64,000 bases of DNA, from assembly GCF_001310085.1 (NCBI RefSeq), contig NZ_CP012643.1:4656001-4720000 (forward strand), written 5' to 3'. This document shows positions 1 to 33,574 of the stretch, piece after piece. Every line of letters starts with the position of its first letter. Position 1 is the first letter of the stretch. The position numbers were made by a program, and so were the translations under genes. The DNA is from Rufibacter tibetensis (GTDB lineage Bacteria; Bacteroidota; Bacteroidia; Cytophagales; Hymenobacteraceae). The notes beneath the pieces were generated by a model. That model did not search any database, was not told the DNA's origin, and saw only the letters and a list, made by a program, of their open reading frames with translations.

Positions 1-299
1 TTGAGATTGATTGTGATAGTATCATTAACCTTATTTCTGATATTTGGGCAAAGGATAAGTAGTTCATCTTTATAAACCTCTATATCAGATATGTATGGGG
101 AAGAGTAAGATTCAAAAATCAAATCTTTCCTATTTTCCCCACCTTCAGAGTATTTAATTAGCCACTTGAATGAAGTAGTTGCGCCCCCGTCTAATACTTC
201 CCAAGAAATACAGTTTTCGTTCCAGTTAACTTCTTTTAGTATTTCAGGTTCACTACACGAAACCAGCAATATCAAAATCCATAAATACCAAATTTTCAT
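1..299 (-). CDS. Putative lipoprotein (partial, cut by window edge)
   Basis: A minus-strand frame opens at 299 and is still open at base 1, about 99 codons. It begins MKIWYLWILILLVSC, a signal peptide with a lipobox ending in Cys15, so the product is probably a lipid-anchored envelope protein. The visible part has no domain I recognise. It is the most distal cassette seen and follows a short-class attC-like site directly upstream. Function unknown. Confidence 0.7.
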   Translation of the reverse strand, partial: MKIWYLWILILLVSCSEPEILKEVNWNENCISWEVLDGGATTSFKWLIKYSEGGENRKDLIFESYSSPYISDIEVYKDELLILCPNIRNKVNDTITINL

Positions 300-312
300 T
301 TTTTATTTTATA

Positions 313-364
313 GCTAACGGACTGGGCTTTGCAGTGGCGCAGCTACCGTAAAGGTGTTGTTGTA
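313..364 (-). repeat. attC-like site, short class
   Basis: A 52-bp site with GCTAAC at its left edge and GTTGTA at its right edge; the arms around GGGCTTTGC and the internal CAGTGGCGCAGCT can fold. It separates two lipoprotein cassettes and matches the short class seen at 31230 and 32534. Confidence 0.75.
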
Positions 365-376
365 CTATAGTTGTTT

Positions 377-949
377 TTAATCGTAGTCTGTAAAATAGGA
401 ACTGTTACAATCAACCGCAGTGGGATTTATTTGCTCAATGACCCTTTTCTCATAATTTACTCTCCAAGCCCTTAATGTTCTTACGGCATTATCACTTTTT
501 TCCTTGGCCACTCCAAATGTAAGGAAATCACCTTTGCAGCTTGACTCACACAAATCAACAAAGTATTCATCCTTCTTAAGGCTTGGTATAGGTGTAGCAC
601 CGATGATTCTATAACCTTCAGTACCGTCTACCAAGCAAAGCATGAACTGCTCGCCCTTGCTAAGAATCAGGTATCCCAAACTGCCTTCTCCACTTAATAC
701 ATGTACAGTTTGCATTTGGTAACCTGGTAATAGTTTTTCAGTCTCATATAGTTGATTTTGCAATTCTGTTGTAGTATCAAGCTCTAATGAGGTAACTAAA
801 CAAGAGTCTAATCCGACTTCTGCTACATCCATTGGATTATCTGACTTAACAGTATTTTCAATTTTTTCTAGTTCAGATTTGTGATACTCTTCTGAAATAG
901 TAGTAGAGCAGCTACCTATCAGAAAAGTTAATAAAATGATAAAGTTTTT
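377..949 (-). CDS. Putative lipoprotein, unknown function
   Basis: 190 residues. I take the internal ATG at 949, which gives MKNFIILLTFLIGSC, a clear signal peptide and lipobox; six extra upstream codons would spoil the signal peptide. The mature protein is acidic, has no recognised domain, and contains a CESSCKGD motif in its second half. It occupies a single-gene cassette between a short-class site and the long-class site at 963. Probably lipid-anchored and facing the periplasm. Confidence 0.75.
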   Translation of the reverse strand, partial: KNFIILLTFLIGSCSTTISEEYHKSELEKIENTVKSDNPMDVAEVGLDSCLVTSLELDTTTELQNQLYETEKLLPGYQMQTVHVLSGEGSLGYLILSKGEQFMLCLVDGTEGYRIIGATPIPSLKKDEYFVDLCESSCKGDFLTFGVAKEKSDNAVRTLRAWRVNYEKRVIEQINPTAVDCNSSYFTDYD

Positions 950-962
950 CATCTCAATTGAG

Positions 963-1029
963 TACAACGTTTAGTGCATGAGGTGTGCAAGGCCGTCGGC
1001 CGAGGCATGGCTTATGCACCTTGTTGGAC
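963..1029 (-). repeat. attC-like site, long class
   Basis: About 67 bp running from TACAAC to GTTGGAC, with the loop GGCCGTCGGCCGA and stem arms TGCATGAGG / GGCTTATGCA. The 3' end of the next gene lies inside it. Confidence 0.85.
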
Positions 1030-1413
1030 TTTCGCACTGTTTTTGTTTTTTCTTTTAGCGAATCCACCACCTATCGCGCCAATTAATGCAGCGAATACAG
1101 AATTGAAGATTACTGCCGTTGCCCAAAATGCTGGAGTCATTTCATAGTCTGTCCCGATATTAGCTTCAAGATAGGTAGAAATTGATAAACCTATGGTTGC
1201 ATCAAAGAATCCCATGAAAACAGCATAGGTTACCCCTTTGCTAAAATTTGACTCACTTGTTACTAGATAAGCAACTGTGCCATATATAAGGTATGAAAAT
1301 GGAGATAGTAAACCGTAGTTGAAAGCAAACTGCCTTGAAGCAATAGAACCTAATGTATCGAGTATAACAACTGCTAAAAATCCACTTATCAAAATCTTAA
1401 ATGTATCCTTCAT
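1012..1413 (-). CDS. Small polytopic membrane protein (duplicated cassette gene, copy 1)
   Basis: 133 residues with about four hydrophobic segments (roughly 5-22, 35-55, 60-85, 95-120) and a basic C-terminus. The last residues, VQQGA, and the stop are encoded inside the attC-like site. A near-identical paralog lies at 21679-22080, and the similarity continues about 240 bp upstream of both, so a whole cassette was duplicated. Domain family not recognised; function unknown. Confidence 0.75.
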   Translation of the reverse strand: MKDTFKILISGFLAVVILDTLGSIASRQFAFNYGLLSPFSYLIYGTVAYLVTSESNFSKGVTYAVFMGFFDATIGLSISTYLEANIGTDYEMTPAFWATAVIFNSVFAALIGAIGGGFAKRKNKNSAKVQQGA

Positions 1414-1463
1414 TTCATGTGTTTATTTTATATGATGCTTGACTACTGTATTCTAAAATCCTT

Positions 1464-1589
1464 CTATTTAAAGGGTCTACCCTTTAAAACTAGTGAAGCT
1501 GAAGTAAGGGTAAGTACTCCGATGGGAATGAGCCAAACTATGCTCCGAAACAGCATGAACAATATTGGCAATATTAAGAATATAGCCAT
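1464..1589 (-). CDS. Short hydrophobic protein upstream of the membrane gene
   Basis: About 41 codons from an ATG at 1589 giving MAIFLILPILFMLF, two hydrophobic stretches and a basic tail. The frame extends further upstream, but that part reads into a decayed attC-like site, so I prefer the internal start. The same frame is present next to the paralogous cassette at 22131-22252, where it carries a stop codon. This supports real coding here, or at least an old shared ORF. Function unknown. Confidence 0.4.
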   Translation of the reverse strand: MAIFLILPILFMLFRSIVWLIPIGVLTLTSASLVLKGRPFK

Positions 1590-1630
1590 CGCTGAAAGTA
1601 TGCTGGCTATGCTTCCCGCTTCATCAATGT

Positions 1631-1701
1631 GTGCTGATAGTCTCGTGTCAATGTGGTGACAGTCAGTTGGCTGTATCATGGCTTATGCACAATGTTGTGT
1701 A
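1631..1701 (-). repeat. Decayed attC-like site
   Basis: The right half keeps ATGGCTTATGCACAATGTTGTG of the long class, but the left AAC has become GAT and the GGCCGTCGGCC loop is degraded. Probably no longer recombines. Confidence 0.5.
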
Positions 1702-1714
1702 CGGTTTCCTTTAG

Positions 1715-2116
1715 TTATACCTTTTCTCCCCGCCCTAGTCCATATATGCATTCATCCCCATTTATTATTGACCAGCACTCATATCCGCTTGAATCGGTAA
1801 GTATTTCAACGGTGAAATCATTTTCAAAACCAAGGTATAAGTCGCCTGTATTAACGTTCCTTTGGATTGTGGCCAATTTTTCTTCCAGGAGAGACTTCCT
1901 TAACTCAGTTTCCAGGTTTATTGGCGTTTTGTGCGCGTAGAGTTGCCCATGGTCTTTTGACGTCCATTTGATTCTTCCATTTTCCAGAAGCCGCCAGAAG
2001 CATTCAACTTGAACCCTCAGGTTATCTTCAAATACAAGGTGCCACACTTCACTTGCTTTAAAGAAGTAGCAGTCTATAAGTGCGAATCTTCCTTGTATTA
2101 TGGTTTCTTTATCCAT
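1715..2116 (-). CDS. Hypothetical cytoplasmic protein
   Basis: 133 residues, no signal peptide or membrane segment, mixed charge. It begins MDKETIIQGRF and has aromatic-rich strands (EVWHLVFED, VECFWRLLENG, YECWSIINGDE) suggesting a small mostly-beta fold of the kind seen in immunity-like proteins, though I cannot name a family. The site directly upstream (about 2120-2180) resembles a heavily decayed short-class attC. Confidence 0.6.
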   Translation of the reverse strand: MDKETIIQGRFALIDCYFFKASEVWHLVFEDNLRVQVECFWRLLENGRIKWTSKDHGQLYAHKTPINLETELRKSLLEEKLATIQRNVNTGDLYLGFENDFTVEILTDSSGYECWSIINGDECIYGLGRGEKV

Positions 2117-2197
2117 CTTTCATTGCGGCCAGTGAATTTGGCTTTGCTGTTGTAGCTAGTGTAAAGAAGTGGTAAGCACATGTGGTTCCAAATGTGT

Positions 2198-2758
2198 TTA
2201 TCTACTAATCCACCTGTTATGCATTCCCTCTGCTTCCCTGTAAATGACTTCCGCATCCCCGAAAACAATCAACGTTCCAGTATCAGACCAAGGAGAAATA
2301 GCTTTGTTCAAAGCGGTTTCTATATTATATCGCTTAGAGTCAATTATAGAGTTCTCTGATATAATGTAGCAATCATCGGTATTCCCAAGGTCTTTTATTC
2401 TTTCTTTAATTGCTCTGACTTCATCTCCATTGATTCTCTCAAACATACCTTCCTGGAAAATGCCAGCCTTAGATAAGTCTTTCGTGAACTTTGAGCGTGT
2501 TTTATCATTGCTGATGAAGCCCAAATACCTTTCTATTTTTGTACTGTTGATGAACCCCTTGATTACCTTCGCTTCTAAAGCTGTTTCTGGTGCCATATTC
2601 TTTGATAATAGGTTCCTTGGCAGAATTTGTTCTAAACAGGCGTACTTGAGCAGTTGACAATGGTATAGTTTAAGCACTAGGTGACCTGCTATTGATTCTT
2701 TATCCCTTCTTGAGAGATTTGATTGCCATCGAAATCTATTAAGTATTTTCTCTGGCAA
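2198..2758 (-). CDS. Hypothetical protein
   Basis: 186 residues, soluble, rich in Lys, Arg and Glu. It overlaps the 3' end of the upstream gene (2689-3270) by 70 bases in another frame, which suggests translational coupling in a two-gene cassette or a frame displaced by recombination. A start further in, at MAPETALEAK, would remove the overlap. No family recognised. Confidence 0.55.
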   Translation of the reverse strand: MPEKILNRFRWQSNLSRRDKESIAGHLVLKLYHCQLLKYACLEQILPRNLLSKNMAPETALEAKVIKGFINSTKIERYLGFISNDKTRSKFTKDLSKAGIFQEGMFERINGDEVRAIKERIKDLGNTDDCYIISENSIIDSKRYNIETALNKAISPWSDTGTLIVFGDAEVIYREAEGMHNRWISR

Positions 2759-3270
2759 AAGTCGGTTAACTCTATATGGTCTGCATTTAGTCTGAACGCT
2801 TCTTCATCATTAAGTGAGACAAAGATATCCGCACCCCCGAATTGCCACTTTATATTTCCTTTTTTGTCAAGGCGAGTAACTTCCATCTCCCCGTGAACTA
2901 CATAGCCTTCCTGTAAGTTGTAAATACCGAAGCAGGTTGCCTGGTCTGCTTGGGCTTGCCATTTCAGTTCCAGACTGGGCAGGGTAAGACAGAAAACCGT
3001 ATCACAACAGCATACTAAAATAGTATCGCTTCCTACCAGTGAAGAGTTTTCGGATATACCTGTTGCCCCACCTGAGCCGATAATCATACACCTGCTTATT
3101 AACCCCCCTTCCTGGTAAACCCTAACCCCGTGAGTAGAAGTCGGGTATTCCCGCGCACCAACACCAAAATGGTGCTTCTCATAATTGAAAATGTTGTCAG
3201 CTGAACCATATTCATAACTAGGTTCATCAAACACTTCAATCATCAAGTTCTGGTATCGGTACTGGTTCAT
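2689..3270 (-). CDS. Hypothetical WD/PQQ-like beta protein
   Basis: 193 residues, no signal peptide. Repeating segments such as LPSLELKWQAQADQ and LDKKGNIKWQFGGADIF resemble PQQ-like or WD beta-propeller blades, and CCCD lies near residue 87. It is too short for a full propeller, so it would form part of one or a smaller sheet. It precedes and overlaps the 2198-2758 gene. Function unknown. Confidence 0.6.
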   Translation of the reverse strand: MNQYRYQNLMIEVFDEPSYEYGSADNIFNYEKHHFGVGAREYPTSTHGVRVYQEGGLISRCMIIGSGGATGISENSSLVGSDTILVCCCDTVFCLTLPSLELKWQAQADQATCFGIYNLQEGYVVHGEMEVTRLDKKGNIKWQFGGADIFVSLNDEEAFRLNADHIELTDFCQRKYLIDFDGNQISQEGIKNQ

Positions 3271-3307
3271 TATCTAAAATGGCAGATGATGGCTCTAATG
3301 GTTATAC

Positions 3308-3889
3308 TTAGCCCTTATTACTTAAAGCTATATTCTCAGAATCCAGCACCCTAACAATGGTCTTCTCTGGTTTCCCTTTCACCTGGTGCTCAATCGTCAG
3401 TTCAGGCTGCTGCTTGGTACCTCCCCATCTACCGAACTTGGGCATGAAGAAAGGCCCTACCCTGAATAGTCTATAATCAATGGGCATGTCATAGGTACCC
3501 GTGGTCACATAGGCATAGTGGGAACAGTTGCATTCCTCTAACTCTGGGTCAGCGGGACCGTTACAGGCCAGGTAAACCCGAACCTCATAGTCATCTGAGC
3601 TGAAGGAGGTATCCGCTTCCGCTATGGCGAGTACCTCGGCAAACTCCAAGCCTTTGATTTCTGAGGAACTTACTTTTCCATAAAGCTTAGCGTTCACGGG
3701 AAAGGGAGATAAGCTCTCCTGTCCTTCCGTTTCAGTCACGCCCACTTCTGCGCCTGCTATCACATCCCGAAGGCTGTCAATGGTGGCTTCCTTGCTGGCA
3801 ATGTTTTTTTCAAGTTGGTGAACCTTGCCCTGGTTAGGATTACAGCTTAAAAGGCTGGCAAGAACAAGTATGGGTGACCACTTTCTCAT
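3308..3889 (-). CDS. Putative lipoprotein with N-terminal coiled coil
   Basis: Taking the ATG at 3889 gives a 193-residue protein starting MRKWSPILVLASLLSC, a signal peptide with lipobox. A short heptad-like segment follows (HQLEKNIASKEATIDSLRD), then a globular part with CNGPADPELEECNCSHY near the middle. Upstream in-frame codons have no signal character and would cover a decayed spacer. Likely an envelope protein of unknown role. Confidence 0.7.
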   Translation of the reverse strand: MRKWSPILVLASLLSCNPNQGKVHQLEKNIASKEATIDSLRDVIAGAEVGVTETEGQESLSPFPVNAKLYGKVSSSEIKGLEFAEVLAIAEADTSFSSDDYEVRVYLACNGPADPELEECNCSHYAYVTTGTYDMPIDYRLFRVGPFFMPKFGRWGGTKQQPELTIEHQVKGKPEKTIVRVLDSENIALSNKG

Positions 3890-3950
3890 TGATTGGAATT
3901 GAGTTAGCCGTTTGTCTATAAAACTTATGTGTGTTTTTGGTGGTGTAATG

Positions 3951-4388: not shown

Positions 4389-4407
4389 GCCTTTGATTTA
4401 CTTGACT

Positions 4408-4478
4408 GAGCCGTTAACTGATTGATACATGTCAGGCAAGTCAGTCAGTCTTGGCTGGCGTTCACACAGTGTAAGTAG
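4408..4478 (-). repeat. Decayed attC-like site
   Basis: AGCCGTTAACTG on the left and TGGCGTTCACACAGTG on the right keep the outline of the long class (compare 17429), but both core boxes and the loop are mutated. Confidence 0.45.
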
Positions 4479-4487
4479 CTGTATCAA

Positions 4488-4961: not shown

Positions 4962-4977
4962 TTTAATTGGTATGTGC

Positions 4978-5031
4978 GTACGGAACAGTGTAAACAGCTT
5001 ATCATGCTGGCGTTTACATCCAGTTATAAGT
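4978..5031 (-). repeat. Decayed attC-like site
   Basis: GTGTAAACAGC on the left pairs with GCTGGCGTTTACA on the right, as in long-class sites, but the GGCCGTCGGCC loop has gone and the AAC is displaced. Confidence 0.45.
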
Positions 5032-12594: not shown

Positions 12595-13689
12595 CTATTC
12601 GCCCCTGTCCATCGATACGCTTATTAGTTTGTATCCCTTTTCTGTTTTAAGAAACTCAAACTGGTTTTGATAAATGCCTTTCCCTTTCTTATGGGGAATC
12701 ACTACCTGCATTACAGGGTATTTTTCAACCAAAAACGTACCGCAGTTATCAAAGTACATGTCATATTCTTTGCCCTCAAAAACCCCAGAGTTTAATCCGC
12801 CAAGCGTTATGGAAAAATCCTGGCCTAGCTCCTTGATTATTGAGAGCCTTTCCTTTATCAAAGAAAAGTGTTTCTCTAGGAGTTTTTTACTTGGTGTGAT
12901 TCTCCAGCCATCAGCATTTTCCCAGAATGCCAAATCCGTTGAAGCTTCCTGCTTTAGATTTTCAAGGGTAAAATTATCAAGCAAAGATTGCTGCAACCAG
13001 TAAGAAAAGTCTTTGCGGTAGCTTACAAACGAATGCCTTATCCCGTCAAAACCTGCAAAGTACTCCCTATTAGGGTCTTCTTCTGAGTTGTCTTGTAGGA
13101 GGTGAGAATAAAGGTCGAGGTCTAAGTCGAAGGTAAATTTTTCAATAATCGCAGTATTCGTTGTGTCAATCAGCATTGTCTTTCCGCCTGTCCAGCTGAA
13201 GTGGTTACAACCTGAGTGGTCATGCCCTTCCCTGAATTCTTTCTTTGCATCAATGAGTGCTATAACCAGGCCATTCTTCACTTGTGAGAGGTGGTTATAG
13301 ATAGCGGGAATAACCACCTTGCCGTTTCTGTTGAACATTCCTACTTTCTCTGTCCTAAGGTCTCTGAACCTTATGAAGCCTTCGCATTCGCAATCTGGGG
13401 TAGCCTCGACAGTATAGGCACTGTCTCTTCCAAAGGATTTACCTGATTTCGTCAGATAATAGAAGTCAGCATACACGCCTTCCCCTTCTGAGGCGATAAA
13501 CACATGGTCCAGTCGGTCTACCACGGACCTGTTTGAGAACTTTGGTTGAATTTGAACTCTCCCGTTTTGGTCTTTGAAGCCAAAGCTTTCTTCTTTCTTG
13601 TCCCAAAATACAGTCCAATGCTCTGACTGCTGGGAATAGGCTAAAGTCCCTATTAATAGAAAAATATAGGTAAGAATTATGGTCTTCAT
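12595..13689 (-). CDS. WG-repeat secreted protein
   Basis: 364 residues with a signal peptide (MKTIILTYIFLLIGTLAYSQ). At least two WG-type beta repeats are visible: ESFGFKDQNGRVQIQPKFSN (about 34-53) and KVGMFNRNGKVVIPAIYNHLSQVKNGL (about 110-136). An acidic middle and an alpha/beta C-terminal part follow. WG repeats usually mediate binding; no enzyme motif is evident. Largest single-gene cassette of this part of the array. Confidence 0.75.
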   Translation of the reverse strand: MKTIILTYIFLLIGTLAYSQQSEHWTVFWDKKEESFGFKDQNGRVQIQPKFSNRSVVDRLDHVFIASEGEGVYADFYYLTKSGKSFGRDSAYTVEATPDCECEGFIRFRDLRTEKVGMFNRNGKVVIPAIYNHLSQVKNGLVIALIDAKKEFREGHDHSGCNHFSWTGGKTMLIDTTNTAIIEKFTFDLDLDLYSHLLQDNSEEDPNREYFAGFDGIRHSFVSYRKDFSYWLQQSLLDNFTLENLKQEASTDLAFWENADGWRITPSKKLLEKHFSLIKERLSIIKELGQDFSITLGGLNSGVFEGKEYDMYFDNCGTFLVEKYPVMQVVIPHKKGKGIYQNQFEFLKTEKGYKLISVSMDRGE

Positions 13690-13690
13690 A

Positions 13691-13753
13691 TAACGAACTT
13701 GTGGAAAAGGTGACGAGGCCGTCGGCCGAAGCTGGCGTTTATACAGTGTTGGT
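13691..13753 (-). repeat. attC-like site, long class
   Basis: About 63 bp with TAACG left, GTTGGTG right and GGCCGTCGGCCGA loop; the left arm is partly mutated (CTTGTGGAAAAGG). Confidence 0.8.
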
Positions 13754-13765
13754 GGAAGTGCTTTT

Positions 13766-14257: not shown

Positions 14258-14278
14258 TTTTTCATAATTTGCATTACC

Positions 14279-14344
14279 ACCAACGGTTAGTACATAAAGT
14301 GAGCAAGGCGTAGCCGAAGCTTAGCTTATGTGCAGTGTTGGTGG
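14279..14344 (-). repeat. attC-like site, long class
   Basis: 66 bp, CCAACGG to GTTGGTG. Arms TACATAAAG / CTTATGTG are kept, and the loop is changed to GGCGTAGCCGA. Confidence 0.8.
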
Positions 14345-14715: not shown

Positions 14716-14784
14716 CACCAACGGTCTAGTGCATGAGGCGTGGAAGGCCGTCGGCCGTAGCATGGCTTATGTACAATGTTAGGT
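14716..14784 (-). repeat. attC-like site, long class
   Basis: 69 bp, CCAACGG to GTTAGGT, GGCCGTCGGCCG loop, arms AGTGCATGAGG / GGCTTATGTAC. The stop codon of the gene at 14779 is part of its ACCTAAC core box. Confidence 0.85.
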
Positions 14785-15872: not shown

Positions 15873-16931
15873 ATGAAACCACATGTACTAAAGCAGGCCC
15901 TGGGAATAGACGTGGCCAAAGACTCTCTTTCCCTTTGCTTGGGCACCCTGACGCAGGATCTGGAAAAGCAGTTTGTTGCCGGTGGTGACGTGGCCAATGA
16001 CCCCAAAGGTTTCCAAAGAATGGAGAAATGGCTAGCCAAGCTCGAAGTCCACAAGGAGAAACTGGTGGTCGTGATGGAAGCCACCGGGGTATACCATGAG
16101 GCCCTGGCGCTGTACCTGCACCAGAAAGGATATGCCGTCAGCGTGATGCAATCAGGACGGGTAAAGCGCTACGCCCAAAGCCTGAGCCAGCGCTCCAAGA
16201 CGGACGCCCTGGACAGCCGGATGCTGGCCATGCTGGGCTGCGAGCGGAAACTGACGCCTTGGTCCCCACCGGACGGGACGCTGCGGCACCTGAAAGCCCT
16301 GAGCAGGGAGCGCTCCTTCCTGCTCAAGGAGAAAAACGTGGAAAAAAACCGGCTGCACGCAATAGAAGCCTCTGCCTACGGCAACCCACGGGAGGTAAAG
16401 CGCCAGGCAAAGCGGCTGAAGCTGGTGGAGGCGCAGCTCCAGGAAATCGAGGGGGAGATGAAAGGGCTGGTAGCGCAGGATAAAGCTCTGGCCGGGAAGA
16501 TCCAGTGCCTGGAAAGCATACCGGGGGTATCTTTCATCTCGGCGGCGACGGTGGTTGGGGAGACCTGCGGCTTCAGCGAGATCACCAGCGCAAAGCAGCT
16601 GGCAAGCTATGCCGGGTATGATGTGGTGCTGAAGGAATCCGGCGCTTTCCGGGGCGACACCAAAATAAGCAAGAAAGGGAACAGCCACATCAGGAGCATA
16701 CTCCACATGCCTTCCATGACGGCCGTGCGGGTCAATCCGACCCTGAGGCAGTTCTACACCCGGCTAAAGCCCAACAAGGCAAAGCCTATAGTGGCCCTGG
16801 TGGCGGTACAGCGAAAACTGCTGCTGCTCATGTACAGTCTGTTCAAGAGAAATGAGTACTACGACCCGCTATTTGAAATAAAAAAACAGCAAGGGCCGAA
16901 ACCCTTGCTGCACAGGATAGAGGCAATTTAA
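15873..16931 (+). CDS. IS110-family transposase (DEDD recombinase)
   Basis: 352 residues. The N-terminal RuvC-like part shows the acidic set GIDVAKDSL (Asp about 13), VMEATGVYH (Glu about 72) and SKTDALDSR (Asp pair about 111-114). A helical linker follows, then the C-terminal Transposase_20-type domain with SIPGVSFISAATVVGE and FRGDTKISKKGNSHIRSIL, which holds the conserved serine. Full length for the family. It would act with the predicted bridge RNA encoded just upstream to insert at CT within attC stems. Codon use is GC-richer than in neighbouring cassettes. Confidence 0.92.
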   Translation: MKPHVLKQALGIDVAKDSLSLCLGTLTQDLEKQFVAGGDVANDPKGFQRMEKWLAKLEVHKEKLVVVMEATGVYHEALALYLHQKGYAVSVMQSGRVKRYAQSLSQRSKTDALDSRMLAMLGCERKLTPWSPPDGTLRHLKALSRERSFLLKEKNVEKNRLHAIEASAYGNPREVKRQAKRLKLVEAQLQEIEGEMKGLVAQDKALAGKIQCLESIPGVSFISAATVVGETCGFSEITSAKQLASYAGYDVVLKESGAFRGDTKISKKGNSHIRSILHMPSMTAVRVNPTLRQFYTRLKPNKAKPIVALVAVQRKLLLLMYSLFKRNEYYDPLFEIKKQQGPKPLLHRIEAI

Positions 16932-16988
16932 AAATTGACATCTTCCTAAGTTAGTTTGTCTAGATAAACTTGACTTTTGACACAGTAC

Positions 16989-17043
16989 CTAAACGGCGGG
17001 CGAGGCCGTCGGCCGAGACTGGCGTTTAGCCTAACCGTTAGCT
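16989..17043 (-). repeat. attC-like site, split by the IS110 element
   Basis: The right part of the attC (CTAAACGGCG ... GTTAGCT, with GGCCGTCGGCCGA loop). The missing left end, CACCTAACGTACTGGGCT, lies at 15615-15632 on the other side of the insertion sequence. Confidence 0.8.
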
Positions 17044-17428: not shown

Positions 17429-17496
17429 AGCTAACGGTCTCGTGTAAACGGCGGCGAAGACCGTCGGCCGAGACTGGCGTTTAGGTGTTGTTAGCA
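17429..17496 (-). repeat. attC-like site, long class
   Basis: 68 bp, GCTAACGG to GTTAGCA, arms GTAAACGGCGGCG / GGCGTTTAG around CCGTCGGCCG. The next gene's last codons lie inside it. Confidence 0.88.
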
Positions 17497-18008: not shown

Positions 18009-18021
18009 TATTTAAATTGGT

Positions 18022-18087
18022 GCTAACGTACTTGTGTAAACGGCGGCGACGGCCTTCGGCCTAATTGGCGTTTACACGTTGTTAGCT
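18022..18087 (-). repeat. attC-like site, long class
   Basis: 66 bp, GCTAACG to GTTAGCT, arms GTGTAAACGGCGG / TTGGCGTTTACAC, loop ACGGCCTTCGGCC. Confidence 0.88.
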
Positions 18088-18604: not shown

Positions 18605-18626
18605 CTATTTAGTTTTTAAAATCACA

Positions 18627-18694
18627 CCTAACGGTCTCGTGCAAACAGCGTGCGAGGCCGTCGGCCGACGCATGGTGTTTGCACAATGTTGTGC
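18627..18694 (-). repeat. attC-like site, long class
   Basis: 68 bp, CCTAACGG to GTTGTGC, arms GTGCAAACAGCGTGCG / CGCATGGTGTTTGCAC with small bulges; a reference example for the class. Confidence 0.9.
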
Positions 18695-19447: not shown

Positions 19448-19460
19448 ATCTTATATTATG

Positions 19461-19525
19461 CACAACGGCTTGTATAAACGACGGCAAGGCCGTCGGCCGA
19501 AGCTGACGTTTATGCCTTGTTAGCG
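19461..19525 (-). repeat. attC-like site, long class
   Basis: 65 bp, CACAACGG to GTTAGCG, arms GTATAAACGACGGC / GCTGACGTTTATG, GGCCGTCGGCCGA loop. Confidence 0.88.
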
Positions 19526-19543: not shown

Positions 19544-19975
19544 TTATATGTCATAATAGAGACCTAAGCCTAAGTCGCCAAACAATAACAGATGCCCAGC
19601 AATTAGTACAGGGAACAGGAATACAGCAGTCAATTTCTCTATCCGATTTAGCTCCTTGTCCTTAAAAATTGAGTTAACCAGAATCACGTATGATGGTACC
19701 AATCCAAGGAATAGTAGCAAATGAACCCATCCAAGCCCCTGACTGTCGTGGCTTCCCCCTGAATACAGCTTTATGCCAATGTCATGTAGAGCAATTAGCC
19801 CGTAAGTAATTAAAGATAATGGTATTGGGTTTATGGATGTGACCTTAAAGCAAACTAATGTCGTTACAATTATTAGTAGAACTGGTGTAAGCATCATTCC
19901 AGTCGGTGCAAAGGAATGAGCAAACAAAATATTTGCTATTACAAGTATAAATGCAATCGTAATTCTAATATTCAT
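19544..19975 (-). CDS. Small polytopic membrane protein
   Basis: 143 residues with about four membrane helices (5-25, 30-48, 55-75, 83-105) and a final hydrophobic segment. It is the first cassette after the internal leader copy at 19992, so it may have been the newest insertion when that leader headed the array. No family recognised. Confidence 0.7.
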   Translation of the reverse strand: MNIRITIAFILVIANILFAHSFAPTGMMLTPVLLIIVTTLVCFKVTSINPIPLSLITYGLIALHDIGIKLYSGGSHDSQGLGWVHLLLFLGLVPSYVILVNSIFKDKELNRIEKLTAVFLFPVLIAGHLLLFGDLGLGLYYDI

Positions 19976-19991
19976 ATTTTAAATACACGCT

Positions 19992-20481
19992 AACTACGGG
20001 ATATATGGAACAACTACGGTTATTGGCACTATGGATGGAAGTCTATCTATCCTTTTCAAACCTAAGTTTGAGTGGGTATGTACTAATCTATGTACCCTTA
20101 CCATACAATATATGATTATACAATATATGTAAATTCCTTAATCATATACCTTCTCACACCCATTTTCTTGCACTTATCACATATAAGCTGAGTTTCAATC
20201 AATTCATTGATGCTTGTAATACTATACTCTTGTATCCCTGGGGCATGAATTCTCATTTATGAGCAGTTTTAATCTTTGAACTTGGCACACCTGAAGGTAA
20301 AAGTGATAAAGGTTTAACCGTAACTATTCGGGTAAATCCGAATATAAGCGGTTATATGCGGATAGATTCGAAATCTGCTTATTATTAGCTTGCCTAAACA
20401 AACCTGAGTTGAAGGAGCCACTTCCCTGACTTAATCAATTTCAAAGCCAAACAAGAATTTAAAGCTTAGTTAAGGAAACGG
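19992..20481 (-). repeat. Internal second copy of the array leader (attI-like)
   Basis: Bases 19992-20192 are identical to 33510-33710, and similarity (roughly three quarters by eye) continues to about 20481, matching 33999. At the left edge both copies end ...CCCGTAGTT on the minus strand and then differ (GTTAGCG here, GTTGTGC there), the exact place where integron cassettes join. The inverted repeat of the other copy is present but degraded (CCGTAACTATTCGG then CCGAATA). No complete gene is visible in these 490 bp. It marks either fusion of two arrays or an older leader displaced into the array. Confidence 0.8.
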
Positions 20482-21631: not shown

Positions 21632-21696
21632 TAAATAACTGTTTCGTAAAAGCAGAGGCGATGTGGCCGTAGCATGGCTCAGGCACCTTGTTGGGT
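21632..21696 (-). repeat. attC-like site, partly decayed
   Basis: Keeps GTTGGGT at the right and AAC in AATAACTG at the left, but the loop is reduced to GTGGCCGTAGC. Confidence 0.6.
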
Positions 21697-22080
21697 CTTT
21701 GCTCTGTTTTTGTTTTTTCTTTTAGCAAACCCACCACCCATTGCACCAACTAATGCAGCGAGTAAAGAATTGAAAATTACTGCCGTTACCCAAAAAGCTA
21801 CAGTCATCTCATAGTCTGTACCAATATTAGCTTTAAGATAGGTAGAAATTAATAAACCTATGGTTGCCTCAAAGAATCCCATGAAAACAGCATATACTAC
21901 CCCTTTGCTAAATCTCGACACCCTTGTCACTAGATAAGCAACTGTGCCATATATAAGATATGAAAATGGAGATAGTAAACCGTAATTGAAAGCAAACTGC
22001 CTTGAAGCAATAGAACCTAATGTATCGAGTATAACAACCGCTAAAAATCCACTTATCAAAATCTTAAATGTACCCTTCAT
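21679..22080 (-). CDS. Small polytopic membrane protein (duplicated cassette gene, copy 2)
   Basis: 133 residues, about nine in ten identical by eye to the protein at 1012-1413, including the C-terminal basic patch and the attC-encoded QQGA end. Differences are scattered and conservative (SESNFSKG to RVSRFSKG, for example), so both copies were probably kept under selection. Likely an inner-membrane protein with four helices; family not recognised. Confidence 0.75.
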   Translation of the reverse strand: MKGTFKILISGFLAVVILDTLGSIASRQFAFNYGLLSPFSYLIYGTVAYLVTRVSRFSKGVVYAVFMGFFEATIGLLISTYLKANIGTDYEMTVAFWVTAVIFNSLLAALVGAMGGGFAKRKNKNRAKTQQGA

Positions 22081-22749: not shown

Positions 22750-22808
22750 GATAGCATTAACAGTATGAAGGCCGTCGGCCGAAGCATAGCTTATGCACCT
22801 TGTTATGG
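22750..22808 (-). repeat. attC-like site, left core lost
   Basis: Right half intact (GGCCGTCGGCCGAAGCATAGCTTATGCACC then GTTATGG). The left core reads GCGATAGC rather than CTAACG. Confidence 0.65.
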
Positions 22809-26036: not shown

Positions 26037-26089
26037 TACAACGCACTTGGCTATGCGGCGGCACAGCTAACCTATAGGTCTTGTTGTGC
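26037..26089 (-). repeat. attC-like site, short class
   Basis: 53 bp, TACAACG to GTTGTGC, arms GGCTATGCGGCGG / CAGCTAACCTATAGG. Confidence 0.8.
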
Positions 26090-26095
26090 AAAGCT

Positions 26096-26484: not shown

Positions 26485-26537
26485 ACCCAACGCACTAGGC
26501 TATGGCGCTTTTTAATGCGCTATAGGTGTTGTTGTGT
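26485..26537 (-). repeat. attC-like site, short class
   Basis: 53 bp, CCCAACG to GTTGTGT, arms GGCTATGGCGC / GCGCTATAGG around TTTTTAAT, a nearly perfect short hairpin. Confidence 0.82.
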
Positions 26538-27050: not shown

Positions 27051-27779
27051 TTACAAACAACGGCCTCGTGCATGAGGCGTGCTAGACCGTCGGCCGTAGC
27101 ATGGCTTATGTATCTTGTTAGCCAAAGTTATTTTAACCCCAGCATTTTCCAGGCACCAATCTGCTTGATTACACCAATCTTTCCCTTGATTGTAGAATCC
27201 TCTTTTAAAAATGCCTACAGGAAAGGCTATGTCTTTACTTTTGCCATTGTTGGTGATAATGGTAAATTCTTTGCAGTTACCAATGGTGTAGGTCTCCTTT
27301 GAAATAGGCTTGCTCTCTTCTTCTAAAACACTTTCAGGTGCATTAGGATTAGTCTCGCTTTCTTCGTTATGGTGATAGCTCACTAACTTAGCCCCAAACT
27401 CCAATGTTATTTTATTCCCCTCTAGTTTGTAGGTTCCCCTTCTCACGTAATGTCCTTCGCAGAGGTCATCGGACACAAACTGATTCTCTGTTATGAACAT
27501 CAAGTCAGCGTTGCAGCAATCACATGCCTCTGCTATTTCACAAACGTTTTCGTCAATTCCACCTCCCAGCACAAATGTTTTGCCTTTTAAATCAGTAATT
27601 CCAATAGGCGTAGTCGGATTGGTGTGTTCAACTTTGTTTATGAAATTACCTGAGTCAATTGAGGTAATCAGACTTGTTGTATCAGCATCTGCACTAGTAT
27701 CTGAAACTTGATTGTTCTCTTTAGTATCTGAACATGAATATAAAATGCTTAATAAAATGATGCTTACAATCCCTTTCAT
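27051..27779 (-). CDS. Putative lipoprotein whose C-terminus is encoded by attC
   Basis: 242 residues starting MKGIVSIILLSILYSC, signal peptide plus lipobox. A beta-rich domain follows (TPIGITDLKGKTFVLGGG, CCNADLMFITENQFVSDDLCEGHYVRRGTYKLEGNKITL), resembling lipocalin-like lipoproteins. The reading frame has no stop before the attC-like site, runs right through it (last residues ANKIHKPCYGRRSSTPHARG) and ends just beyond. The native end was therefore probably lost or replaced at the junction. Confidence 0.7.
   Translation of the reverse strand: MKGIVSIILLSILYSCSDTKENNQVSDTSADADTTSLITSIDSGNFINKVEHTNPTTPIGITDLKGKTFVLGGGIDENVCEIAEACDCCNADLMFITENQFVSDDLCEGHYVRRGTYKLEGNKITLEFGAKLVSYHHNEESETNPNAPESVLEEESKPISKETYTIGNCKEFTIITNNGKSKDIAFPVGIFKRGFYNQGKDWCNQADWCLENAGVKITLANKIHKPCYGRRSSTPHARGRCL
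27056..27123 (-). repeat. attC-like site, long class
   Basis: 68 bp, ACAACGG to GTTAGCC, arms TGCATGAGGCGTGC / GCATGGCTTATGTA, ACCGTCGGCCG loop. Fully translated as the tail of the overlapping lipoprotein gene. Confidence 0.85.
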
Positions 27780-27796
27780 TTATGATTTTAATTTTG

Positions 27797-27864
27797 GCTA
27801 ACGTCTAGTGCATGAGGCGGCTAGGCCATCGGCCGAAGCATGGCTTATGCACTAGACGTTAGGT
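27797..27864 (-). repeat. attC-like site, long class, most symmetrical
   Basis: 68 bp, GCTAACG to GTTAGGT. The outer arms CTAACGTCTAGTGCAT and ATGCACTAGACGTTAG pair perfectly, which is unusual in the series. Confidence 0.88.
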
Positions 27865-28363: not shown

Positions 28364-28390
28364 AGCTTATTTTCATTAACTCTCTTCTCA

Positions 28391-28458
28391 CCTAACGGTT
28401 AGGCTAAACGACGGCTGTCGCCGTCGGCTGGAGATGACGTTTAGCCTAACCGTTAGCC
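28391..28458 (-). repeat. attC-like site, long class
   Basis: 68 bp, CCTAACGGTTAGG to CCTAACCGTTAGC, with arms GGCTAAACGACGGC / GATGACGTTTAGCC. It carries CTAAACGACG, an exact match for the IS110 right target guide at 15743. Confidence 0.88.
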
Positions 28459-28705: not shown

Positions 28706-28774
28706 TGTTGTCGAGTTATTGATTTTCTGATGACTTTTGTAAGTATCAGTTTGATTTCTATTTATTTTAGTTAA

Positions 28775-28843
28775 GGCTAACGGTATCGTGCATGAGGCGT
28801 GCAAGGCCGTCGGCCGTAGCATGATTTTTATACAGTGTTGTAG
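28775..28843 (-). repeat. attC-like site, long class
   Basis: 69 bp, GCTAACGG to GTTGTAG, GGCCGTCGGCCG loop. The two arms differ (CGTGCATGAGG against ATGATTTTTATACAG), as if assembled from two site types. Confidence 0.82.
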
Positions 28844-28852
28844 CACGTTTTT

Positions 28853-29326: not shown

Positions 29327-29346
29327 TTTTTATATTTTAAATGTGC

Positions 29347-29412
29347 TACAACGGACTAGTATAAAAGACGGCGAGGCCGTCGGCCGATGCTGACTTTTAT
29401 ACAGTGTTGTAG
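29347..29412 (-). repeat. attC-like site, long class
   Basis: 66 bp, ACAACGG to GTTGTAG, arms GTATAAAAGACGGCG / TGCTGACTTTTATAC. Confidence 0.87.
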
Positions 29413-29421
29413 TTAGTTTTT

Positions 29422-29958
29422 TTATTTCACATTATAACTTTCAAGCACCATAAAGCCAAATGCCCCTTTCTTTATTGTCAAGGTGACAAAATCCGATTCT
29501 TCCACTTTGGCAGTACTGCTGTAGCCGAAAACCAACTCTTTCTCTTCCCCGAAGTAATCAAATCTGACCAATGGCATTCTTTTACTTTTGTTAGACGTTC
29601 CTGGCATCGAGGACTTTTCTTTGATAGGGAAGGTGAATTGCTTTGAGTCCCTTCCAGCCAAGTAGAAGTTTCCTGCCATGAAGATATAGCAAGCTATGAA
29701 TCCGAAAGAGAGAAGGCTCTGCATCAATGGGTAAAAGAACCCTCTTACGTTATAGACTTCTTTATATTTTCTCTGTAGAAGTAGATAAGTTAGAACTCCA
29801 ACACCAAGTATGATTGAAAGCGGAATAGTAGAGTCAATAATCGTGCTTCTGTAAATATCTATCTGGAGAACCATTAATATCATCCCTGTGAAAATGGTCA
29901 CGCCAAAGAACCATTTCCAGTATAACTTATCTTTCAGGTCTGATTGTTTTTTGTCCAA
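29422..29958 (-). CDS. Polytopic membrane protein
   Basis: 178 residues with about four membrane helices in the first 105 (15-33, 40-60, 72-95), then a soluble beta domain (MPLVRFDYFGEEKELVFGYSSTAKVEESDFVTLTIKKG) resembling the DUF3592-type module. Similar in plan to the smaller protein at 17070. Function unknown. Confidence 0.68.
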   Translation of the reverse strand: MDKKQSDLKDKLYWKWFFGVTIFTGMILMVLQIDIYRSTIIDSTIPLSIILGVGVLTYLLLQRKYKEVYNVRGFFYPLMQSLLSFGFIACYIFMAGNFYLAGRDSKQFTFPIKEKSSMPGTSNKSKRMPLVRFDYFGEEKELVFGYSSTAKVEESDFVTLTIKKGAFGFMVLESYNVK

Positions 29959-29978
29959 TTTTCCTATTCAAAATTAAC

Positions 29979-30046
29979 TACAACGGTCTCGTATAAAAAA
30001 CGTGCGAGGCCGTCGGCCGAAGCATGATTTTTATACAATGTTGTGC
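29979..30046 (-). repeat. attC-like site, long class
   Basis: 68 bp, ACAACGG to GTTGTGC, arms CGTATAAAAAACGTGCG / GCATGATTTTTATAC. Confidence 0.87.
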
Positions 30047-30057
30047 GGAGTGATTTT

Positions 30058-30510
30058 TTATTTTTTTAACGCTCCCATTATATCTTGGTCATAATCATAT
30101 CCAGCTTCATTTGGGAAAATCCCTTCAATGTCGGGGTAAATCACTTGCAAGTATTTAAATTCTTTGTCTCCATAAATTTTAATGCTTGAGAGAACATACT
30201 CTTTTAAATTTGTAATTGGAACGTCGATAAGGTAAACAGGAAATCTATCTGTCAAAAAGTTAAGTTTTTCATTCAGAGAAATTTCTTTCCCGTCCTTAAA
30301 TGCTTCAACATAGTTTTCAATAATTTCAGAGCAAAGTCCCTTGGGTAGAGACGAAATAAATATTTCTGGAATTTTATAAGTCTGGTAAATCCCTGTTGAG
30401 TAGCAAAATCCTGGAGAGTCGCTTTCTAAGATATTGGTCACATGGTAACCGTATTCTTTTATGTTGTTATTTAGCTTTTCAAAATATTCTTTTATTTGCT
30501 CGTCTGTCAT
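30058..30510 (-). CDS. DUF4262 family protein
   Basis: 150 residues. YGYHVTNILESDSPGFCYSTGIYQTYKIPEIFISSLPK and YLQVIYPDIEGIFPNEAGYD are the two hallmark blocks of DUF4262 (…pgFaYTvGL…PElii… and lQv.yPD..G.fP). Members are standalone bacterial proteins of unknown function. Soluble, single-gene cassette. Confidence 0.82.
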   Translation of the reverse strand: MTDEQIKEYFEKLNNNIKEYGYHVTNILESDSPGFCYSTGIYQTYKIPEIFISSLPKGLCSEIIENYVEAFKDGKEISLNEKLNFLTDRFPVYLIDVPITNLKEYVLSSIKIYGDKEFKYLQVIYPDIEGIFPNEAGYDYDQDIMGALKK

Positions 30511-30544
30511 TTCTTAACCTTACTTCATAAATTTATTCATTACG

Positions 30545-30609
30545 CACAACGTCTAGTATAAACGATGGCGAAGGCCGTCGGCCGAGGTGACGTTTATACC
30601 TTGTTAGCA
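30545..30609 (-). repeat. attC-like site, long class
   Basis: 65 bp, CACAACG to GTTAGCA, arms GTATAAACGATGGCG / GTGACGTTTATAC. Confidence 0.87.
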
Positions 30610-30618
30610 CATGTATTT

Positions 30619-31221
30619 TTATCCAGCGTAGTCTAAACTATTTAAAAGTAATTTCTCTCTTTCTACTGATAAATAGTAAATAGTCATAGACTCTGCGCAT
30701 CCAATGTCAGCGTCAACCAAGAACCTATTATCTATGGAGAGAGCGAACTCACTGGCGTTTTCTCGAAGGCTTAAGGTAAGTCCGTCTGGACACTCGTTGC
30801 TGTCTGGTTTGTATCCTTTAGGTGCGGAATCAAAGGAATATTTCTTCTCAAACTCCTTGTTATCTTTCAGTGAGTCCAGATTAATTGACTTGAGAAAGTC
30901 TACAAGAATTTCTTTGCTTGGCTGGGGGAAACTTAATCTCTGCCCTGCTGTCATTTGGACGGTGTCTTTCGAGGTGTAAGAATTGACTTGGGTAATCAGT
31001 TCATCTATCTGCTTATAGTCGCCTCTTATAATCTGTTCCCTTACCTCCGATAAGGGTTTTAGGCTTTCTGTGGCAGTTTGTTCTTTGGACTCCCTCTCAG
31101 GGTTGATTGAAGGGCTTTCCTTGGATTCAACGACAGATGTTTCTGTTTTGGTCCTGCCATCAGAGCAGCTTGATATTAAGAGAATTAAAGCGGCCAGAAA
31201 GAGGCTCAATTTTTTATTCAT
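30619..31221 (-). CDS. Putative lipoprotein
   Basis: 200 residues starting MNKKLSLFLAALILLISSC, signal peptide with lipobox. A low-complexity Ser/Glu/Thr linker (about 20-55) is followed by a helical domain (LSEVREQIIRGDYKQIDELITQV) and a C-terminal part with two cysteines. Typical of surface lipoproteins with a tether. No family recognised. Confidence 0.7.
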   Translation of the reverse strand: MNKKLSLFLAALILLISSCSDGRTKTETSVVESKESPSINPERESKEQTATESLKPLSEVREQIIRGDYKQIDELITQVNSYTSKDTVQMTAGQRLSFPQPSKEILVDFLKSINLDSLKDNKEFEKKYSFDSAPKGYKPDSNECPDGLTLSLRENASEFALSIDNRFLVDADIGCAESMTIYYLSVEREKLLLNSLDYAG

Positions 31222-31229
31222 TTATGAGT

Positions 31230-31282
31230 AGTAACGTACTTGGCTTTGCGGTGGCGAAACTGCCGTGAAGGTGTTGTTGTAT
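31230..31282 (-). repeat. attC-like site, short class
   Basis: 53 bp, GTAACG to GTTGTAT, arms GGCTTTGCGGTGGC / AACTGCCGTGAAGG. Confidence 0.8.
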
Positions 31283-31286
31283 GGAG

Positions 31287-31769
31287 TTATTTCTCAAACT
31301 TTTGAATAGAAAGGCTTAAATCTTGTTGTGAGAGTGTAAAACTCACTGCCCAATGAAAATCTTCGTCTATTATGGCAAATATCCCATCTCCACCTTGGTC
31401 TGCCTTATCATGACTTAATGAGTGAATTATGAACTTTAACCAACTCTGTTCAATATTTATGTATCCAATACCCAAATATTGGTTTATGGCTTGGTCTATC
31501 ACGTTTACTCTGAACCAAAGCAACCTTCTGTCATAGCCTGTTTCTCTATATTCGAGTTGTTTTGATTTTAGGAAGTTAGTTACCTCATTAATTTCATATG
31601 ACAGCTTTCTGATGCTGAGAAAGTCATTTCTCGCAATGTTTATAGGGATATTGATTTCTGTAGTTTTTTCTCCAATCTCTTCTAAATCAATACCATTTTC
31701 ATCTGTTATGTAATTAGAGATTATCTTTTTTTCATAAAATCCTAATTTGCTCTTTCCTATATTACTCAT
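31287..31769 (-). CDS. Hypothetical cytoplasmic protein
   Basis: 160 residues, soluble. The C-terminal half (LLWFRVNVIDQAINQYLGIGYINIEQSWLKFIIHSLSHDKADQGGDGIFAIIDEDFHWAVSFTLS) alternates helix and strand and looks immunity-like, but I cannot name a family. Short-class site on one side and the unusual site at 31797 on the other. Confidence 0.68.
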   Translation of the reverse strand: MSNIGKSKLGFYEKKIISNYITDENGIDLEEIGEKTTEINIPINIARNDFLSIRKLSYEINEVTNFLKSKQLEYRETGYDRRLLWFRVNVIDQAINQYLGIGYINIEQSWLKFIIHSLSHDKADQGGDGIFAIIDEDFHWAVSFTLSQQDLSLSIQKFEK

Positions 31770-31796
31770 TTTTTATTTTAATTATTATAATTTCAT

Positions 31797-31846
31797 ACAA
31801 CTACTGTATATAAGGAGCAGTTCCGCTTATTGGCACTGTAGCTCTA
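31797..31846 (-). repeat. attC-like site, third class, related to the leader end
   Basis: AACTACTGTATATAAGGAGC then CGCTTATTGGCACTGTAG. CTAC..GT and AATAAG pair with CTTATA and AC.GTAG with bulges. It aligns with the last 45 bp of the leader at 33510 (AACTACGGGATATATGG ... TTATTGGCACTATGG), so leader end and this site share ancestry. It overlaps the end of the Imm53 gene. Confidence 0.65.
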
Positions 31847-31967
31847 TCTCAACTGACCAGCCAGGATTGTCAACCGTTGTGATTTTGATTCCAAAGCCAT
31901 GTTCCCAATCCCCATCACAGTTGTTCCTATACCAATCCTGTATCCGCTCTAGTAGAGATTTGGTCAT
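31827..31967 (-). CDS. Imm53-family immunity protein, truncated
   Basis: 46 residues from the ATG at 31967. LLERIQDWYRNNCDGDWEHG then FGIKITTVDNPGWSVEIEL is the conserved N-terminal block of Imm53, an immunity family of polymorphic toxin systems normally about twice this length. The last residues and the stop are formed by the attC-like site at 31797, so recombination has removed the C-terminal half. This is the clearest hint that the array stores immunity-type genes. Confidence 0.72.
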   Translation of the reverse strand: MTKSLLERIQDWYRNNCDGDWEHGFGIKITTVDNPGWSVEIELQCQ

Positions 31968-31985
31968 CTTTTTATTTTAATTAAC

Positions 31986-32053
31986 CCTAACGGACTCGTG
32001 TAAACAACGTGCTAGGCCGTCGGCCGTGGCATGGTGTTTACACAATGTTAGGG
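31986..32053 (-). repeat. attC-like site, long class
   Basis: 68 bp, CCTAACGG to GTTAGGG, arms CGTGTAAACAACGTGC / GCATGGTGTTTACAC, GGCCGTCGGCCG loop. Confidence 0.88.
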
Positions 32054-32071
32054 GCAGTAATTTTTATTTTT

Positions 32072-32521
32072 TTAATGTGCCAAACAAGCCTCACTATATC
32101 CAATAACTTCTTGTTGTTCCAATTCAGTTAGATATTCTCTAATAGGATTGTAATCTACGTTAGAGGGAACGTCAACTGAAAAGTATTTAGAAAGGTGACT
32201 TAATTCAGAAGCGCATCCAAAATCTTTCAGCCGATTCCGCACCTTTTCAACATCTTCTTCTTTATAACAGAATACTTGAAGTGTGCTGTTTCCTGATTCT
32301 TTAACAAGTCCTTTTACAACTAATCTATCATCTTCCAATTCTGCGTGAACTATGTCTTCGCTGGAATAGCTTTTCACAAAAAAGGGTATGTTCTTCAATT
32401 TGTAAAGGCCTTCTTTCTCGTCCTCTACAGCCGCCCAAACACTCTCTATATAATCCTCGTCGAGAATGTCGTTGAAGAACTCAAAGTAAACTTTTATGTA
32501 TTCTTCTGATTTCTCTTTCAT
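32072..32521 (-). CDS. DUF4265 family protein
   Basis: 149 residues. IESVWAAVEDEKEGLYKLKNIPFFVKSYSSEDIVHAELEDDRLVVKGLVKESGNSTLQVF is the DUF4265 signature (VEslWA ... y.ldNiPFfa ... gDiv.a ... vv..SGnst..v). Standalone soluble proteins of this family are widespread and have no established activity. Long-class site upstream gives way to a short-class site at 32534. Confidence 0.82.
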   Translation of the reverse strand: MKEKSEEYIKVYFEFFNDILDEDYIESVWAAVEDEKEGLYKLKNIPFFVKSYSSEDIVHAELEDDRLVVKGLVKESGNSTLQVFCYKEEDVEKVRNRLKDFGCASELSHLSKYFSVDVPSNVDYNPIREYLTELEQQEVIGYSEACLAH

Positions 32522-32533
32522 TATTATTTATTG

Positions 32534-32588
32534 CCCCTAACGTACTTGGCTATGCAGCGGCAGAGCTGCTGTATAGGTGTTGTTATGG
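32534..32588 (-). repeat. attC-like site, short class
   Basis: 55 bp, CCTAACG to GTTATGG, arms GGCTATGCAGCGGCAG / AGCTGCTGTATAGG; the best example of the short class. Confidence 0.83.
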
Positions 32589-32616
32589 GTAGTTGTTCTT
32601 CCATGATTATTATCCC

Positions 32617-32811
32617 TCACTTAAATAGCTTAACTACTATATCATAAATCCCAAAAACTCCTATCATCAAGAAAATAAGACCACTTATAAAGTTGCGCGC
32701 CCCTGTCCAAAATAAAGTTTCATAAGAATTATATTTCCAAAACTTGTGCTTTATCAGGATAAAGATTCCAAGAGGAATACACAGTATGCTTAAAAGATGG
32801 CCAGAATGCAT
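32617..32811 (-). CDS. Small membrane protein
   Basis: 64 residues with two membrane helices (about 5-22 and 38-60) and a short basic loop (KHKFWKYNSYE). The second cassette from the leader. Function unknown. Confidence 0.65.
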   Translation of the reverse strand: MHSGHLLSILCIPLGIFILIKHKFWKYNSYETLFWTGARNFISGLIFLMIGVFGIYDIVVKLFK

Positions 32812-32849
32812 ATGAAGTATAAACTATCATTTTTTACTTTCAAATTACC

Positions 32850-32900
32850 CATAACGTTTTGGCTAAAAAGCGTTTTAATGCTTTTTAGGTGTTGTTGTGG
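32850..32900 (-). repeat. attC-like site, short class
   Basis: 51 bp, ATAACG to GTTGTGG, arms GGCTAAAAAGCG / TGCTTTTTAGG around TTTTAA; nearly perfect hairpin. Confidence 0.82.
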
Positions 32901-32904
32901 TAAG

Positions 32905-33495
32905 TTATTCACAAAAATCTTCTTTCATCTTGCTAATAACTTCGGTACCAAACTTTTCCTTCATTCCCAATTGCTCTGCTTTTTCTATATCTCTGCAAGC
33001 TGAAGCGGTTCTACCCATACCATGGTATGCCACTGCTCTATTCGCATAAATTTCAGGCAAAGTAGGTTTGATTTCAACGGCTCTATTAAAATCTTCTAAT
33101 GCAGATGTAAATTGGTATGCATGAGCGTATGCTAACCCTCTGTTTAGAAGTGCAGGAATATAGTCTTCATCGATTTGAAGACATCTGCCAAAATCAATTA
33201 TAGCTTCTTGGTTGTCTCCTAAGCGTTGATAGGCGACACCTCTATTTAAGTATAATTGTATATTGCCGCCATACTTTTTCTCTGCTAGGTTGAATTTTTG
33301 CATTGCTTCAGGGATTTTACCTTCTTTCAGCAATTTTATGGCTTCTTGAAGTATTGGATGCTTATCCCATTCAAAACTGCCTGCCACTTCTTCATCAGCA
33401 TCATGGTATTGGACATTATCCTCCACTTTGACAGATTCGTCATTACAGCTTAAAATGGCACCTATTATTAATAGGCATAGGATTCGTATTTTCAT
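32905..33495 (-). CDS. TPR-repeat lipoprotein (first cassette)
   Basis: 196 residues from the ATG at 33495 (MKIRILCLLIIGAILSC), signal peptide and lipobox; an upstream in-frame start would lie inside the leader and is rejected. At least three tetratricopeptide repeats occupy about 60-165 (for example YLNRGVAYQRLGDNQEAIIDFGRCLQI and ALLNRGLAYAHAYQFTSALEDF). Probably a lipid-anchored scaffold. As the first gene after the leader it should be the most recent acquisition. Confidence 0.8.
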   Translation of the reverse strand: MKIRILCLLIIGAILSCNDESVKVEDNVQYHDADEEVAGSFEWDKHPILQEAIKLLKEGKIPEAMQKFNLAEKKYGGNIQLYLNRGVAYQRLGDNQEAIIDFGRCLQIDEDYIPALLNRGLAYAHAYQFTSALEDFNRAVEIKPTLPEIYANRAVAYHGMGRTASACRDIEKAEQLGMKEKFGTEVISKMKEDFCE

Positions 33496-33574
33496 TTTTA
33501 ATTTAGCACAACTACGGGATATATGGAACAACTACGGTTATTGGCACTATGGATGGAAGTCTATCTATCCTTTT

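Follow-up and report, generated by a model that had tools for sequence, protein, structure and literature searches.

How can a bacterial chromosome carry a long array of gene cassettes with no integrase gene beside it? Mobile gene cassettes of this sort spread antibiotic-resistance genes in other bacteria. The question arises from a 64-kb stretch of the Rufibacter tibetensis genome (G000:C1:4656001-4720000, hereafter the window; the genome comprises 5.4 Mb on three contigs), in which the minus strand of positions 1-33509 interleaves short genes with palindromic attC sites. A preliminary description had called it an integron-like cassette array, all in one orientation, with no visible tyrosine integrase.

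Here, we argue that this is very probably a sedentary chromosomal integron array, whose cassettes would have been captured through recombination at G^TT by a trans-acting recombinase that lacks the I2 helix, or patch, of classical integron integrases (IntI). In the proposed mechanism, site-specific recombination with its crossover between G and TT in GTTRRRY would take up and rearrange cassettes that each consist of a short gene and one attC. A 484-amino-acid (aa) recombinase related to XerA and IntI, with the usual catalytic residues and no I2, would act in trans on the array in the window.

Cassette structure and mobility

The sites of the array have the canonical layout, running from the gene stop through R''(RYYYAAC), L'', the variable terminal structure, L' and R'(GTTRRRY) to the next ATG. 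Between 1 and 33.5 kb the minus strand carries ~49 open reading frames (ORFs), and layout and orientation both match integron cassettes. A generic scan for AAC..GTT palindromes could not tell arrays from chance, and covariance models were used instead. The first of these, R1, was built from 17 sites. At E<=0.01 it recovered 20 sites within the window (best E about 1e-20), all on the minus strand. On the plus strand the only matches were these palindromes read backwards, with weak scores; no R1 site fell within 34-64 kb, and Rfam returned no match in the window at its gathering threshold. The predicted fold is conserved: in a set of 114 sites, standard pairs fill 87% of pair cells, a share that drops to 28-42% once the partners are shifted by 1-3 columns, and there are 279 double-sided changes versus 132 in shuffles.

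Integrated cassettes carry a record of their capture. Since each site's R' tail (TTRRRY) is part of the cassette that follows, R'' should match the tail at which its own cassette starts rather than the adjacent R'. Among 82 informative consecutive pairs, the own-cassette start tail fits R'' better in 74 (69 of them perfect, 4/4), and the adjacent R' fits better in 3 (none perfect). All 89 pairs together yield 76 perfect matches, against about 4 with random tails. Such a pattern requires that cassettes once recombined as circles at G^TT.

Comparison with relatives reveals how far the content has changed. In BLASTN searches of 15 further genomes from the genus, the array shared mainly attC sites and a few whole units, and the best four non-self matches each spanned about one cassette in unrelated places. 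Cassette content thus varies between relatives, and turnover is almost complete; the preliminary description had proposed comparing cassette order in related strains, and we found no identical gene order. Cassettes of the window also occur alone between housekeeping genes in three genomes (G005, G007 and G020) and with another cassette in a fourth (G004). Taken with the covariance matches, the R''/R' signature and the G^TT breakpoints described below, these lone copies strongly support the view, advanced tentatively in the preliminary description, that the units are genuinely mobile cassettes. The lone cassettes of G005, G007 and G020 are those of L119, L120 and L122; in L119 the homology runs from G^TTAGCC into a truncated attC, a pattern that suggests insertion at a non-att genomic site.

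attI sites and a distant recombinase without I2

The array begins at an attI-like site on the minus strand (33510-33551), with the crossover G^TT at 33512/33511. A second copy, identical over 42 nucleotides (nt), lies at 19992-20033 on the same strand with a different first cassette behind it. The duplication takes in the leader, such that leader plus attI at 33487-34002 (minus strand) recurs at 19969-20480 (86% over about 520 bp). The decay gradient noted in the preliminary description is present but not single, as it begins anew at the second attI copy, which indicates two stacked arrays.

Two further features were observed around these sites. The leader contains an inverted repeat, CCGTAACTATTCGGATATACCCGAATAGTTACGG, upstream of both attI copies (33840-33880 and 20300-20360), which is possibly a regulatory site. 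Within the array, a small ORF at 31797-31967 ends in an attI-like site (31797-31848, minus strand); this unit, with its delta-attI type junction, resembles the delta-attI cassettes of mobile integrons (PMC12901181).

The attI motif of the window also lies directly downstream of a recombinase gene in genomes of the same genus. In R. tibetensis this gene encodes the 484-aa tyrosine recombinase (G000:C2:108490-109944) and heads its own attI and small array on another contig than the window array. We first searched 13 genomes of the genus, R. tibetensis included, and in all of them a recombinase of about 485 aa immediately precedes an attC array and is read in the same direction. A conserved attI ending in ..TAG^TT follows about 130-155 nt past the recombinase stop codon. 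Homology between species spans recombinase and attI and ends at ..CAGTAG^TT, after which the first cassette differs. The tail of this attI is matched by the R'' of the first cassette in 13 of 13 cases (10 were perfect in each of two runs and 12 in the two jointly; the first attC of L038 was read from the sequence). In a separate observation, an IS110-like ORF in G011 (L031) splits attI exactly at the crossover.

While the window holds attI only, the recombinase locus thus displays attI, an adjoining recombinase gene and inserted cassettes together. Since the attI motif is common to both loci, the window most likely contains two stacked attI-headed arrays that lack a recombinase of their own and are served in trans. 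Cassette movement in the window would accordingly fall to the distant recombinase, presumably acting on folded single-stranded attC.

Classical integrases were not found. No tyrosine recombinase within the window matches TIGR02249, the IntI profile, in agreement with the preliminary description, and 0 of 19 genomes (same genus and order relatives) contain a match over the curated cut-off of 265 bits. The R. tibetensis recombinase itself scores 199 bits. The apparent lack of an integrase thus comes down to distance and divergence rather than absence: the genome has no classical IntI, yet on another contig a patch-less tyrosine recombinase stands at the head of an attI and array of its own. Catalytic residues are invariant across the genus, and the closest named homologue (Rufibacter sp. 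SYSU D00344) is 78% identical.

The divergence lies in the patch. The distance from GKGxKxR to HxLRH is 58 aa in the recombinase versus 100 aa in true IntIs recovered by the same search. Alignment with Vibrio cholerae IntI4 reveals that the whole additional domain, patch and I2 helix, is absent, and a structure model lacks a helix at the patch position. In our tree the IntIs form one clade (100/100) with the Bacteroidota recombinases outside it (80/82), and host XerC/XerD and archaeal XerA lie further out. R. tibetensis encodes a separate XerC and XerD, which group apart from the array recombinase. I2 has been held necessary for cassette capture, and integron integrases have been held to originate with its gain (PMC7790495, PMC4792948). 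We nevertheless consider it most likely, from the arrangement of genes and sites, that these recombinases perform integron-type cassette recombination without I2; we found no description of a patch-less integron recombinase class in the open-access literature.

The recombinase also carries an N-terminal extension, modelled as two tandem bbabba domains. A HARP (PF07443) match reaches 21.4 bits (E 1.9e-4) in L037, under the curated 25 bits, and is weaker in L053 and L026; the R. tibetensis copy has no PF07443 match. In Foldseek searches of the PDB, no significant match to the N-terminal model emerged; the weak match to SMARCAL1 HARP had E 0.23. In codirectional systems, HARP-like N-terminal domains may assist the reading of folded attC. 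As a general substitute for I2, however, the extension is weakened as a candidate, since Xer-sized patch-less recombinases without it also head arrays; it is thus not the general answer to attC recognition.

Sites, decay and neighbours of the array

The array occupies 1-33509 on the minus strand, as judged from ORFs, site reading and the covariance model, with its cassettes read from right to left. This span stood up within the window, but the array continues ~5 kb to the left of it, with further sites at G000:C1:4651710-4655858. The great regularity first reported holds at about 13.7-19.5 kb and 26-33 kb only; most sites are decayed at 2-13 kb and 20-26 kb.

All individual sites are on the minus strand, and we give R1 scores in brackets. 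Behind the first attI come two short sites at 32849-32900 (26.5 bits) and 32535-32588 (30.9 bits), and the strongest match at 31985-32053 (83.3 bits, E 2.7e-20). These are followed by attC sites at 30544-30609 (67.2 bits), 29978-30046 (77.6 bits), 29346-29412 (80.6 bits), 28775-28843 (60.1 bits), 28390-28458 (60.3 bits), 27796-27864 (63.5 bits) and 27055-27123 (66.8 bits), and by a decayed site at 22755-22808 (24.4 bits). Behind the second attI lie sites at 19460-19525 (70.5 bits), 18626-18694 (78.9 bits), 18021-18087 (67.3 bits) and 17429-17496 (69.7 bits), a truncated one at 16979-17043 (44.6 bits) beside an IS110-type element, and others at 14716-14784 (75.6 bits), 14278-14343 (60.7 bits), 13688-13754 (61.8 bits) and 962-1029 (75.2 bits). 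Four further short sites (about 53 nt versus about 68) were identified by eye at 31232-31285, 26485-26537, 26037-26090 and 315-370.

The IS110-type transposase ORF (15873-16931, plus strand) is an interloper inserted at an attC, and it recurs beside the C2 array (L009 3596-4654). A 300-nt stretch at 998-1297 recurs at 21665-21964 with 87% identity, indicating a duplicated and diverged cassette. Beside the array head, the region 34147-41899 contains a serine resolvase (34147-34719, plus strand) divergent from the array and judged to lie outside the system, a C5 cytosine methyltransferase, a PADLOC match to UzuA (4.6e-92) and a PDC-S26 match; the region looks like a mobile or defence island.

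Spread, alternative explanations and significance

The same layout occurs well beyond Rufibacter. R1 matches 70 of 121 genomes of the family. A second model, R2, describes sites of about 131 nt from Flavobacteriaceae, for which RNAalifold gives a structure containing both the R''/R' and the L''/L' helices. With R2, sites running codirectionally appear downstream of patch-less recombinases in Flavobacteriaceae, Bacteroidales-type metagenome-assembled genomes and others, and 35 of 198 genomes of the phylum have matches. Elsewhere in Bacteroidota the R'' comparison again favours the own-cassette tail (21/22 versus 0 for the adjacent R', 11/11 and 8/9). We distinguish two arrangements: the recombinase is either extended and codirectional with its array, or Xer-sized and divergent (G067, G203 and G059); G059 carries a true IntI besides its Xer-sized patch-less recombinase. 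On balance we favour, with some reserve, a widespread Bacteroidota integron lineage whose integrases would recombine folded attC without an I2 helix.

The alternative that survives best is a cluster of attC sites lacking an integron integrase (CALIN), that is, the relic of a classical integron that lost its IntI, with the patch-less recombinase a bystander. The window does hold an attC cluster with no integrase near it, its attC and attI are classical in form, parts of the array are decayed, and true IntIs occur in sister classes of the phylum; yet attI heads are nonetheless present. We consider this explanation improbable given the lack of any IntI over the cut-off in the 19 genomes noted above. 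In addition, first cassettes vary by species behind a conserved attI joined to the patch-less recombinase gene, with breaks at G^TT, and the association of recombinase and array recurs in several Bacteroidota families. Within the host's class, just 1 of 15 R2-positive genomes has an IntI over the cut-off and 14 have none.

Several points do weigh against capture by a patch-less recombinase. All of the evidence comes from sequence, and recombination itself is what we infer from it. The recombinase gene lies unlinked to the array in the window, and its role in trans rests on the shared attI motif. Some copies are damaged: in G009 the array-linked gene (C20) is frameshifted, with an intact copy on C17, and a copy in G155 contains a stop. 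Recombination of attC is regarded as requiring the patch (Messier and Roy 2001, as cited in PMC7790495). Of 198 genomes sampled from the phylum, 57 have true IntIs, nearly all of these in classes other than the host's, and several of these true-IntI genomes are matched by the Flavobacterial-type attC model; for these two reasons a classical IntI may have supplied cassettes in the past.

A second alternative invokes host XerC/XerD, which would move the cassettes as happens with Xer-exploiting phages and elements. The patch is absent from Xer recombinases, which are the closest relatives of IntI (PMC7790495). However, the separate XerC and XerD of R. tibetensis lie far from attI and the arrays and are distant in the tree, and the other recombinase keeps a fixed short distance to attI, making this explanation very unlikely. 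Finally, the serine resolvase at 34147-34719 occupies the intI position of classical integrons, but it is scarcely credible as the cassette recombinase and was rejected because it is largely absent from relatives' array heads (its side of the leader has a partial match, 78%, in G001 only), relatives' attI adjoins the tyrosine recombinase instead, and R''/R' boxes with a G^TT crossover are tyrosine-recombinase sites.

With capture by a patch-less recombinase retained as the best explanation, the system can be placed among known ones. It shares with the sedentary chromosomal integrons of the Vibrio and Xanthomonas type its attI, one-gene-plus-attC cassettes, G^TT crossover, single orientation and large arrays whose content is little similar between species. 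It differs in that the recombinase has no I2 insert and falls outside the IntI clade, that its gene is codirectional with the array in the genus, and that the main array is unlinked to it. Like CALIN elements as defined by IntegronFinder, the window has an attC array with no intI in the vicinity, but intact attI copies stand at the head of its arrays and match the attI that accompanies a recombinase on another contig. The best profile match of the R. tibetensis recombinase is to XerA, or 'site-specific tyrosine recombinase/integron integrase' (NCBIfam NF040815; 205 bits, just under the 220 cut-off), which has a catalytic core of equal length; the recombinase here differs in its N-terminal extension, cassette arrays and attI. 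The insert was reported to be not fully conserved in an 'integron-like' subgroup of tyrosine recombinases (PMC8138268), and the passages of that study on the subgroup do not tie its patch-less members to attI/attC arrays. Judged from its genes and sites, we regard the system described here as a real integron platform with a patch-less integrase.

If this is true, I2 is not the defining innovation of integrons, and cassette capture is either older than I2 or has arisen twice. Natural patch-less recombinases, with and without the N-terminal extension, stand at attI ahead of mobile arrays in culturable Bacteroidota, so the role of I2 is directly testable with natural proteins. Surveys pick integrases by the I2 insert (PMC2426708, PMC9668308, PMC9024848), and patch-less platforms would therefore be missed or counted as CALINs; in IntegronFinder 2.0, Salinibacter is the sole named case in Bacteroidetes (PMC9024848). 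Our results suggest that the reach of cassette exchange has been underestimated, and that a large bacterial group may use a form of gene capture overlooked by standard surveys.

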